The position numbers were made by a program, and so were the translations under genes. From Candidatus Enterococcus ferrettii (GTDB lineage: Bacteria > Bacillota > Bacilli > Lactobacillales > Enterococcaceae), in the NCBI RefSeq assembly GCF_017377655.1, contig NZ_JAFREL010000041.1:46823-110822 (forward strand): 64,000 nucleotides of DNA, read 5' to 3'. The notes beneath the pieces were generated by a model. It saw only the letters and a list, made by a program, of their open reading frames with translations. It ran no database searches and had not been told where the DNA came from. Below are positions 5,184 through 41,006 of the stretch, piece by piece; the stretch's first letter is position 1; each line of letters starts with the position of its first letter.

Positions 5184-5426
5184 TTATTTTCGATTGTGTA
5201 AGCCTTTTTGCTGCTGAATTTTCTTCAGCTTGTCTGGTGTGACGTCTTTTCCATCAGGATCAACGATTTTCATTCCTTCAATGTGATGGCGCATGCCGCT
5301 GCGAAAAGTTGATAAATATTCTTCTCGTAAAACCTTTTGTTCCTTTTCTTCAGCATTTGTCAGTCCTTCAGACTTCTTCTTTTTTGCCAATTCATTGATA
5401 CGAGCAATTTTTTCATCCGAAATCAT
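5184..5426 (-). CDS. DUF896 family protein (YnzC-like)
   Basis: Small charged cytoplasmic protein of 80 residues, mostly helical in appearance ([17 protein letters not shown]...). It matches the DUF896 family, whose Bacillus member YnzC sits in the SOS operon beside lexA; its function is not established. Start: ATG at 5426 behind GAGGTG; the in-frame GTG at 5435 lies inside that ribosome binding site. It is divergent from lexA, and the LexA box at 5492-5505 lies between the two genes, so SOS control is plausible. A TATAAT -10 box lies about 25 bases upstream. Confidence 0.8.
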
Positions 5427-5491
5427 TTTATGCACCTCGCTTCCGTTCCCTATTATACCTTAAAATGTCTAGGAAAAAAAAGAAAAAAAAG

Positions 5492-5505
5492 CGAACGCTT
5501 GTTTG
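5492..5505. promoter_or_regulatory. LexA (SOS) box between DUF896 gene and lexA
   Basis: CGAACGCTTGTTTG matches the Gram-positive SOS consensus CGAAC-N4-GTTCG at all but one outer base. It overlaps the start of the lexA -35 box, as expected for autoregulation. Confidence 0.85.
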
Positions 5506-5531: not shown

Positions 5532-5558
5532 GAAAAAAAAGAAAAGAAGGTGAGCGCA

Positions 5559-6182
5559 TTGGCAAAACGAACCGAAACAAAACAATTAGAAGTTCTGCGT
5601 TTTATTCATGAACGCGTTGAAAATAAAGGCTATCCCCCAACTGTTCGCGAAATAGGTGAAGCTGTAAATCTTTCATCTACCTCCACTGTTCACGGACACT
5701 TAGCTCGTTTAGAGAAAAAAGGCTTGATTTTACGAGATCCAACAAAGCCCCGAGCGATTGAATTAACGATTACTGGGCTTGAAAAAATTGGTGCTCAACC
5801 TCAGGTAATTCCCATGCTGGGAGTTGTTACAGCTGGTGAACCAATTTTAGCTGTTGAAGAAGCTTCTGATTTCTTCCCAGTACCACCAGATTTATCTAGT
5901 GAAGAGGGCAGCCTTTTCATGCTAACAATTCGCGGTGAAAGTATGATTAACGCTGGCATCTATGACGGAGATCACGTTATTGTCAAAAAACAAGCAACTG
6001 CTATTAATGGTGAAATTGTCATTGCCATGACCGATGAAAACGAAGCGACTTGTAAAAGATTCTATCACGAAACAGATCATATTCGTTTGCAGCCTGAAAA
6101 TGACCAGATGGAACCAATCATTTTAGATAATGTTTCTATCCTCGGCAAGGTTGTCGGTTTGTATCGAAACCACGTTTATTAA
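5559..6182 (+). CDS. lexA: LexA repressor
   Basis: SOS repressor and RecA-stimulated self-cleaving protease. The N-terminal winged helix (residues 1-65) contains [17 protein letters not shown]. The cleavage site is Ala-Gly in GVVTAGEP. The catalytic serine lies in RGESM and the lysine in [11 protein letters not shown] at 5559 is chosen because AGAAGG stands eight bases before it, which gives 207 residues, the usual size. The alternative GTG at 5550 overlaps that site. The gene has its own SOS box, and the next gene downstream is also under SOS boxes. Confidence 0.96.
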
Positions 6183-6209
6183 TCGGATTTTATCCGGTTA
6201 ATTTTTTTC

Positions 6210-6259
6210 TTTACAAATCGAACAAACATTCGTATAATACATATACAAACATTTGTTCG
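6210..6259 (+). promoter_or_regulatory. SOS promoter with two tandem LexA boxes
   Basis: TTTACA (6210-6215), 17-bp spacer, TATAAT (6233-6238): a near-consensus promoter. One LexA box, CGAACAAACATTCG (6219-6232), fills the spacer. A second, CAAACATTTGTTCG (6246-6259), sits across the transcription start. Each has one or two outer mismatches to the Gram-positive consensus. The arrangement predicts tight repression and strong induction by DNA damage. Confidence 0.85.
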
Positions 6260-6285
6260 CATATTCTATTAGGGGTGAATTATTT

Positions 6286-6555
6286 ATGAAAGCAGTAAGA
6301 AGATTTGGCTTAATCATTGGTTTTTTGTTAGTTGGATTGTTGATCGGCAAACTTGGTTCCTTAGCTACGATTGTTGTCTTCTCTGGTTTGTTCATCGTTT
6401 GGTTCATGCTATGGGATGAAAAAAAATACGCCCAAAAATACGAGCAAGAAGAAGACTATTGGGAAGACGACTATTACGACAATGGAGAACCTGAAGAGGT
6501 TTACTATATAGACTCTTACGATTACTACGATCATCACTATCACAAATCCGCATAA
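6286..6555 (+). CDS. small SOS-controlled membrane protein, function unknown
   Basis: 89 residues. The first half is hydrophobic (about 8-43, GLIIGFLLVGLLIGKLGSL then VVFSGLFIVWFML) and fits one hairpin or two membrane segments. The second half is a strongly acidic, tyrosine-rich cytoplasmic tail with DYYDNGEPEEVYY, ending HHYHKSA. I do not recognise a family. ATG at 6286 follows AGGGGTGA; an upstream in-frame TTG at 6253 lies inside a LexA box and is not used. Its position directly behind lexA and its two SOS boxes match where other Firmicutes encode the division inhibitor YneA. This protein has no LysM domain, so any equivalence of role is only inference. Confidence 0.85.
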   Translation: MKAVRRFGLIIGFLLVGLLIGKLGSLATIVVFSGLFIVWFMLWDEKKYAQKYEQEEDYWEDDYYDNGEPEEVYYIDSYDYYDHHYHKSA

Positions 6556-6556
6556 A

Positions 6557-6590
6557 AAAAGCTCGAAAATCAAATGATTTTCGAGCTTTT
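6557..6590. terminator. bidirectional terminator
   Basis: Long stem GCTCGAAAATC / GATTTTCGAGC with A- and T-runs on both sides, shared by the convergent small membrane protein gene (+) and apt (-). Confidence 0.85.
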
Positions 6591-6596
6591 TTCGTT

Positions 6597-7109
6597 TTAA
6601 TAATTCATTAAGGTTAAGATATCGTATTTTTCAATCTTGTCTCTGCCGTGTAATTCTTCTAATTCGATCAAAAATGCACAACCAACCACGATTCCGCCTA
6701 GTTTTTCAACTAAGTCAATAGTTGCTTTGACTGTACCTCCCGTTGCTAATAGATCATCGGTTACGAGCACACGTTGGCCAGGTAGGATTGCATCTTTATG
6801 GATCGACAAGATATCTGTGCCGTATTCCTTATCATACTCAACGTCAATTGTTGCTCTTGGTAATTTATTTGGCTTACGGACTGGCGCAAAACCTACCCCT
6901 AGTTCAAAAGCTACCGGACATCCTACAATAAATCCGCGTGCTTCAGGCCCTACTACCATGTCGATTTCTTTTTTGCTAGCATACTCGACAATTTGTCGAG
7001 TTGCTTCACGATAAGCAGCTCCATCCGCCATTAAAGGTGAAATATCACGAAAGATAACTCCTTTTTGCGGGTAATCAGGAATACTGGCAATATAATCTTT
7101 TAAATCCAT
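6597..7109 (-). CDS. apt: adenine phosphoribosyltransferase
   Basis: Purine salvage enzyme that makes AMP from adenine and PRPP in the cytoplasm. Its 170 residues are the usual length. The PRPP-binding loop [13 protein letters not shown] (about residues 114-126) is intact, as are the N-terminal signature [17 protein letters not shown] and GPEARGF. It lies 13 bases behind recJ on the same strand, the recJ-apt order common in Firmicutes, and is probably cotranscribed. Confidence 0.97.
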
Positions 7110-31537: not shown

Positions 31538-31755
31538 AAAAAAGAGACCTTGTTCCGTAAAGGAACGAGGTCTCGCGTTACCATCCTAATTCGCCAATTT
31601 TTGGCGCACTCACATTTTTAACGGCCACAGCCGGTCAGTTACGACAAACTCCGGAAGTGAACTTCACCTTTTATCTCCTAATCTGCTTCCAGTCTGTGGC
31701 AGATATTCCCTTAAAAGATCCTAAAAGATTACTCTTTTCCATCAACGCTTTTTAA
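31538..31755 (-). ncRNA. T-box leader (Phe) of pheST
   Basis: The minus strand carries the T-box core AGGATGGTAACGCG (31587-31574), which pairs with the uncharged tRNA 3' end. It is followed at once by a terminator, stem GAGACCTCGTTCC (31574-31562) / GGAACAAGGTCTC (31556-31544), and six T. Upstream lie Stem I-like elements and a TTC triplet (31661-31659) in a loop context that could be the Phe specifier. Uncharged tRNA-Phe would favour the antiterminator and so pheST expression. The 5' boundary is approximate. Confidence 0.88.
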
Positions 31756-40933: not shown

Positions 40934-41006
40934 TTGGGATAACAGGGTTCGAACCTGTAATTGCTCGATTCAGAGTCGAGTGCCTTACCAATTTGGCTAT
41001 ATCCCA
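40934..41006 (-). tRNA. tRNA-Gln (anticodon CUG)
   Basis: A full cloverleaf folds on the minus strand. Acceptor UGGGAUA/UAUCCCA with the U1-A72 pair typical of tRNA-Gln. D stem GCC/GGC, anticodon stem CTCGA/TCGAG with loop CTCTGAA (anticodon CUG). T stem ACAGG/CCTGT with loop TTCGAAC. Discriminator A. CCA is not encoded. It is a single-gene unit with its own promoter and terminator and reads CAG codons. Confidence 0.95.

Follow-up and report, generated by a model that had tools for sequence, protein, structure and literature searches.

The window analysed here is a stretch of 64,000 nucleotides from Candidatus Enterococcus ferrettii (contig NZ_JAFREL010000041.1), and all positions are numbered from its first letter. 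Directly downstream of lexA, and in tandem with it, the sequence reads as a small gene of 89 codons, with an ATG at 6286 and a stop codon at 6553-6555, which is followed by a convergent apt gene (Table 1). On the other side of lexA, upstream and divergent, lie ynzC (DUF896) and tkt, the latter recognized by eye. Terminator-like hairpins, of which the region contains 8 as compared to 3.1 in shuffles, flank the small gene on both sides, and it would therefore form a transcription unit of its own. An Rfam search of the window returned a T-box leader (31558-31754, minus strand) and a tRNA gene (40934-41006, minus strand), with no RNA family match near the small gene.

Table 1. Features of the lexA-apt region of the window
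Feature	Position	Strand	Evidence or remark
ynzC (DUF896)	5184..5435	-	PF05979, 110.5 bits; ynzC-lexA interval without yneA
LexA box of lexA itself, CGAACGCTTGTTTG	5492..5505		Sequence reading and own-genome pattern search
lexA	5550..6182	+	TIGR00498, 226.6 bits (cut-off 110.95); Pfam LexA_DNA_bind and Peptidase_S24
Terminator-like hairpin at the lexA end, 5' of the small gene	6178..6202	+	Hairpin scan
Promoter: TTTACA (6210-6215), 17-bp spacer (6216-6232), TATAAT (6233-6238)	6210..6238	+	11/12
LexA box 1, CGAACAAACATTCG, within the promoter spacer	6219..6232		9/10 to CGAACN4GTTCG
LexA box 2, CAAACATTTGTTCG, immediately 3' of the predicted +1 and spaced 27 bp from box 1	6246..6259		9/10 to CGAACN4GTTCG
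Ribosome-binding site AGGGGTG	about 6271..6277	+	Sequence reading
Small putative SOS gene, 89-aa predicted two-helix membrane protein	6286..6555	+	Homologues, purifying selection, model
Terminator-like hairpin 3' of the small gene, 5' of convergent apt	6555..6592	+	Hairpin scan
apt, convergent neighbour, conserved	6597..7109	-	TIGR01090, 226.1 bits (cut-off 185.85)

The first-pass annotation had described a near-ideal promoter with a LexA box in its 17-bp spacer and a second box on the start site. The promoter and its spacer box were borne out. The second box is likewise present, but it adjoins the predicted +1 (~6245), starting at or just after it. The promoter of the small gene scored highest among 10 sigma-70-like sites between 4800 and 8400 (3.6 kb), where the number of sites of all grades was at the level found in shuffles (mean 10.2). 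When the upstream region was shuffled 20,000 times under a Markov model, one 9/10 box arose in 39 shuffles and two boxes in 0. Across the genome, the strict single-box form CRAACN4GTTYG was found at 14 sites, as compared to 19 for the reversed control, so that lone boxes of this form are not informative genome-wide and only the pair is. One further LexA-type box in this genome, CGAACGTACGTTTG (C85; L300:1501-1514), lies near an integrase-like frame and before a frame of 155 aa.

To follow the gene in relatives, we used the window protein as a query, which gave a match in all 20 genomes of its own genus and in 101 of 105 Enterococcaceae genomes, representing 15 of 17 genera. The family profile added a very diverged member in genome G094, so that 102 of the 105 Enterococcaceae genomes have a homologue. 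The three genomes without the gene are G066, which is 76% complete, and G057 and G095, both of which are near complete and contain LexA; in these two, only weak matches that are not credible frames were seen (E of 0.05 and 0.04). A profile search at the level of the order found matches in 28 genomes of the vagococcal family. Three weak matches in other families (E about 1e-4) fell inside frames of 410-437 aa and were taken as chance.

From the 101 Enterococcaceae genomes with a match, 95 loci were fetched, six genomes of genus g13 being left out of the locus counts. Among these loci, 76 hold lexA, 75 hold apt and 94 hold one or both, the sole locus with neither, L113, lying where a contig ends. 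Of the 76 loci with lexA, 74 have the gene behind lexA in tandem orientation; for L068 and L069, the BLAST step missed the gene and HMMER found it there. The apt gene is convergent in 75 of 75 loci that hold it. Thus, the open frame beside lexA, whose conservation in relatives had been proposed as a test of the first reading, passed that test, and homologues next to lexA in Enterococcus were found by profile search. Three genomes carry a second, unlinked and double-boxed copy (L106-L108). In L179, such a copy stands just before frames that resemble an ABC transporter permease and ATPase by frame reading.

We then asked whether the paired boxes accompany the gene, counting as a pair two boxes that each match at least 8/10 and lie 24-36 bp apart. 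Such a pair was found for 117 of 140 distinct matching frames in the fetched loci, with one box for 3 and none for 20, the background rate being 0.16 boxes of 8/10 per upstream stretch. The spacing was exactly 27 bp in 99 of the 140 frames, and both promoter hexamers matched at least 5/6 in 97 of these 99. The frequency of the pair, its exact spacing and the conserved hexamers rule out chance. By group, the pair was present in 95 of 101 frames from L001-L115 and in 22 of 39 from L145-L184. All 3 single-box frames are vagococcal and come from the 25 vagococcal lexA-type loci that were read. The 20 boxless frames comprise 14 prophage-type copies, the distant hairpin matches in L021, L023 and L109, and the frames in L014, L017 and L020. 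In the avium-type loci L014 (1230-1500) and L017 (reverse strand, about 2040-1765), an internally repeated stretch is inserted between promoter and gene; the box pair is intact further upstream, beyond the inserted stretch. In L020 (genome G017), promoter and boxes are lost and the gene follows 28 bases past the lexA stop, with a box still before lexA. This is apparently a natural change from the gene's own operator to the lexA operon, with apparent co-transcription.

A reverse test was made by searching 103 Enterococcaceae genomes for the bare pattern of two degenerate boxes at 27-bp spacing. The pattern was present in 79 genomes, once in each. The small gene begins 18-280 bp past every one of the 79 places, within 31 bp for 76 of them; the reversed control pattern occurred once in each of 5 genomes. 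The six g13 genomes outside the locus counts are all among the 79 places. Three of the 24 genomes without the exact pattern (G057, G066 and G095) are also without the gene, and in the remainder the boxes are weaker, differently spaced or, as in L020, absent. We consider the reverse test to be the strongest evidence for the proposed SOS link. The pair is also kept where the fetched locus is without lexA (e.g. L084-L094), at the second, unlinked copies (L106-L108) and at the diverged member in G094. Thus, the link does not depend on proximity to lexA. Judged from these operators, the small gene is very likely under LexA (SOS) control, and we infer that LexA would bind and repress at both boxes. 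Because nearly all relatives examined keep the gene, it is probably a core damage-response effector.

The 120 boxed members range in length from 58 to 93 aa, with a median of 70. Their conserved part, residues 1-50, consists of a basic N-terminus, two hydrophobic stretches separated by a short turn, and a W-F-x-L-W-D-E-K/R motif. M1, W39, W43 and D44 were invariant in 28 members and conserved in at least 90% of 55 members. Over residues 1-50, pN/pS was 0.00-0.17 in six pairs, indicating purifying selection, and it was higher in the tail than in residues 1-50 in three pairs with tails of equal length. A modest AlphaFold2 model built on 55 sequences (mean pLDDT 66, pTM 0.41) placed helices at residues 3-20 and 25-61. 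The mean number of K+R was 2.5 in residues 1-7, 0.5 in the turn and 4.6 in residues 44-58 (net charges of +2.4, +0.3 and +1.4, respectively), a distribution that, by the positive-inside rule, places both ends in the cytosol. Thus, the product is very likely a two-helix membrane hairpin, as the model predicts. The earlier description of a membrane protein with an acidic, tyrosine-rich tail holds in part: a membrane hairpin is predicted, and the tail of the window protein is indeed acidic (net -12 over residues 51-89) and tyrosine-rich, but the acidic tail is confined to its own genus. Across the 120 boxed members, acidic and basic residues in the tails are balanced, and Tyr/His are high. Shorter hairpin proteins of about 52-63 aa with distant similarity were seen in L021-L025 and L109-L110, with a Y/F-D-E motif in L021 and L023; by frame reading, L021, L023 and L025 lie in prophage-like early regions.

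Searches of Pfam and NCBIfam gave no family over cut-off for the window protein. Matches to MFS_1 in 12 of 28 members (best E 1.1e-5) were taken as generic helix matches, with a score of 15.4 bits for the window protein against a cut-off of 33.4, and an MFS transporter fragment was rejected. In NCBIfam, there was no match for the window protein and a best E of 8.9e-4 among the other members scanned. The sources call the relatives hypothetical or uncharacterized proteins, apart from P0008, which UniRef names a DUF2273 protein. This name was not borne out for the members scanned: DUF2273 is absent among the best 25 of 31 Pfam families for 28 scanned members, which did not include P0008, and the window protein matched MFS_1 only. 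Consistent with the first description, LysM was found neither for the window protein at E up to 1 nor among the best 25 of 31 families for the 28 members. A PDB sequence search with the family profile gave no match at E up to 1, and a structure search of a viral structure library with the model gave none at E 0.001. The protein does resemble phrog_1270, a phage family with no assigned function: at an E limit of 0.1, all 28 members scanned gave a match (best 1.5e-9), the window protein at 5.6e-7 over residues 5-52. When phrog_1270 was searched over 299 genomes of the class, 7 had a match, with 0 of 14 in control genomes. The initial statement that the protein has no known feature is therefore correct as to curated families, none of which fits, and has to be amended for this phage-family match. 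The protein also proved to be undescribed, as had been stated, in a full-text literature search that covered titles and the starts of abstracts and included few subscription journals.

Relatives without LexA boxes lie in prophage- or satellite-like regions (14 loci among L166-L181, by frame reading), in the neighbourhood of repressor-, Xis- or Rha-type genes and ahead of genes for replication or recombination. None of these 14 copies has a LexA box of 8/10 within 260 bp upstream. Among phages, tblastn found relatives in phiFL1, phiFL2, phiFL3 and SEsuP-1 with two queries, and found none with the window protein and two other queries; no relatives were found in viral contigs. The match in phiFL2A (L306, 4703-4895) lies largely between the annotated genes gp11 and gp12; a Rha-like regulator precedes it, RecE/RecT genes follow, and its surroundings show no LexA box. 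This phiFL2A relative is largely unannotated in the record, and the match is in two pieces. The chromosomal family is thus like phrog_1270 in that all 28 members match these short phage proteins, and unlike it in that the 14 prophage-type copies and the phiFL2A region are without LexA boxes. In a tree of 75 non-redundant rows of the 140, from which distant hairpin matches were left out, boxed and prophage forms stand largely apart (3 changes, as compared to 13.1 in shuffles), with forks that are weakly supported and several long prophage branches. A holin was rejected, as the prophage copies lie in early regions, not lysis regions, by frame reading. Genes for host takeover are common in phage early regions.

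The first-pass annotation had placed the gene at the position where other Firmicutes encode the SOS division inhibitor YneA, and this was not borne out. We compared 35 lexA loci from outside the Enterococcaceae and the vagococcal family, 20 from the order and 15 from other families of the class. In 9 of the 35, a YneA-type gene with LysM lies upstream of lexA and divergent from it (L212, L213, L218, L222, L224, L225, L226, L229 and L230; LysM by Pfam in 9 of 9), whereas in 74 of 76 loci the small gene follows lexA in tandem. Two further loci, L223 and L227, have divergent short frames that we read as SosA-like, with no LysM by Pfam. In 10 of these 11 YneA- or SosA-like loci, the exception being L229, neighbouring boxes are 28-30 bp apart. 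In Enterococcaceae, the start-to-start distance from lexA to ynzC has a median of 141 bp and is at most 329 (75 loci), which leaves no room for yneA in the interval, and the YneA profile gave no frame under 139 aa among the matches listed. The small gene and YneA were never seen together in the loci compared. Four other families of the order (f2, f4, f6 and f9) contributed 18 lexA loci, in which there was no YneA-type frame and whose genomes were without a match to the family; a lexA-linked inhibitor is thus not obligatory. In one of these loci (L199:2554-2850), an unrelated-looking hydrophobic frame of 99 aa without LexA boxes lies between lexA and apt.

YneA of Bacillus nevertheless resembles the small gene in being a small membrane-protein gene behind several LexA boxes adjoining lexA, and YneA and mycobacterial ChiZ resemble it in its candidate part in halting division after DNA damage. 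YneA is reported to have one transmembrane segment and an external LysM domain needed for activity, and its transmembrane domain to bind TM7 of FtsW (PMC13396833). The YneA gene is divergent and upstream, however, and the protein here has two predicted helices, no LysM and, as predicted, almost nothing outside. A comparison by hhalign of the 55-row family alignment with 8 YneA-like rows gave a probability of 0.4 with 1 aligned column. We rejected a YneA orthologue because of the missing LysM, the missing profile similarity and the position on the opposite side of lexA.

Staphylococcal SosA resembles the family in being a short SOS membrane protein without LysM. SosA has a single transmembrane helix and an external C-terminus. 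For the enterococcal family, both model and hydropathy give two helices and the charges favour both ends inside, so that the predicted topology is a hairpin with a cytosolic tail, and SosA-like frames, unlike the small gene, are divergent from lexA. The same source calls an extended region of SosA critical for its toxicity and lists SidA, DidA, ChiZ and SosA as small membrane proteins acting late in division, with SidA and DidA of Caulobacter as tiny membrane proteins acting on the septal synthase (FtsW or FtsN); it states that the models for ChiZ, SosA and SidA are not of high confidence (PMC13396833). The likeness of our family to SidA and DidA, which belong to a different lineage, can be functional only: in both cases a very small membrane protein would act on the septal synthase. 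SidA and DidA are single-pass proteins.

We propose that in Enterococcaceae and vagococci the small gene would belong to the core of the SOS regulon, with LexA keeping it silent through two boxes, of which one lies between -35 and -10 and the other at the transcription start, an arrangement that would give tight silencing. Upon DNA damage, self-cleavage of LexA would release the gene. Its product would be a hairpin with the N-terminus inside, two helices, a very short outer loop, the conserved W-D-E-K/R segment and a variable cytosolic tail. As almost nothing would be outside, the hairpin must act by helix-helix contact or from the cytosol. It may serve as a membrane-borne SOS checkpoint effector that does the job of YneA or SosA, its helices docking onto those of a membrane complex, for which the septal wall synthase is the most plausible candidate, such that division would stop until repair. 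By analogy with these systems, inhibition of division is our best single guess for the function, with a chance that we put at a little below even, and the septal synthase is, with similar reserve, the most plausible target. In line with a checkpoint, the divergent YneA- and SosA-like frames in other Bacilli likewise have operators of several boxes, small membrane proteins are known among late-acting SOS division blockers, Enterococcaceae have no YneA gene at lexA, and relatives occur in phage early regions. Against it, the predicted topology is unlike that of YneA, the profile comparison with YneA finds nothing, and the near-complete genomes G057 and G095 have LexA and no credible match to the gene. 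The more specific proposal, that enterococci and vagococci without YneA at lexA took up an early-phage-related two-helix protein and used it, under a double LexA operator, as an SOS division checkpoint, is possible but distinctly doubtful.

A hydrophobic SOS protein of this size would be equally compatible with a toxin or with a phage-related factor. TisB, a single-pass protein, exemplifies SOS toxins that depolarize the membrane and are paired with an RNA antitoxin. If the small protein worked as E. coli TisB does, as a membrane toxin or persistence factor induced by SOS, it would perturb the membrane and slow growth and would not target the divisome. Its small size, hydrophobicity and double operator would suit such a factor, as would the relatives in phage early operons. 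However, a near-universal gene at a fixed site, with its hairpin under strong purifying selection and its W-D-E-K/R motif, fits a specific partner better, and Rfam offered only the T-box and tRNA mentioned above, although an undescribed antitoxin RNA would be outside Rfam; we regard a toxin as unlikely. The conserved hairpin and motif together with a variable cytosolic tail would suit an adaptor, and the protein could instead be induced by SOS to adapt or tether a protease, a sensor or a repair complex at the membrane, as an accessory of envelope or repair that does not block division. No partner gene is linked to it, however, the small gene being alone between lexA and apt in the window, and this explanation appears rather improbable.

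The match of 28 of 28 members to phrog_1270, together with phiFL1-3 and the boxless relatives found behind repressor-, Xis- or Rha-type genes in prophage- or satellite-like regions, would also be expected if the protein were the host's version of an early prophage protein, modulating the induction of prophages or excluding other phages during SOS. In 94 of the 95 fetched Enterococcaceae loci, the boxed genes share a single chromosomal position, next to lexA, apt or both, and they are largely separate from the prophage forms on the tree, weakly resolved as it is; such a phage-related role seems to us improbable on the whole, and fairly clearly so. That the frame and its boxes are fortuitous and the gene functionless has practically no probability in view of its presence in 102 of 105 genomes, the pN/pS of residues 1-50 (0.00-0.17 in six pairs) and the operator places, all 79 of which precede it, and a chance frame is ruled out by its conservation.

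Enterococcus includes important hospital pathogens. A full-text literature search, in which few subscription journals were included, returned no account of an SOS division inhibitor from Enterococcus and no expression or phenotype data for the gene. SOS-controlled small membrane effectors are known as a class; the enterococcal family and its architecture are not described in the literature searched, and the gene that bears this distinctive LexA operator in Enterococcaceae has no name or function in the libraries searched. Should the protein be a checkpoint effector, it would mean that, from one lineage to the next, such effectors give way to small membrane proteins unrelated to them, and it would tie them to phage early genes; the gene, its operator and its homologues would give a ready handle on DNA-damage survival in enterococci. 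If the checkpoint were also related to an early phage protein, it would represent an effector class that acts within the membrane and below it with no external domain, and the phage relatives may act likewise on the host during induction. A separate observation concerns a 3.6-kb unannotated record for Listeria phage LM 4-11-1 (OR847331.1:1760-1975), which encodes a protein 87.5% identical to an Enterococcus member; this sequence may be host DNA.
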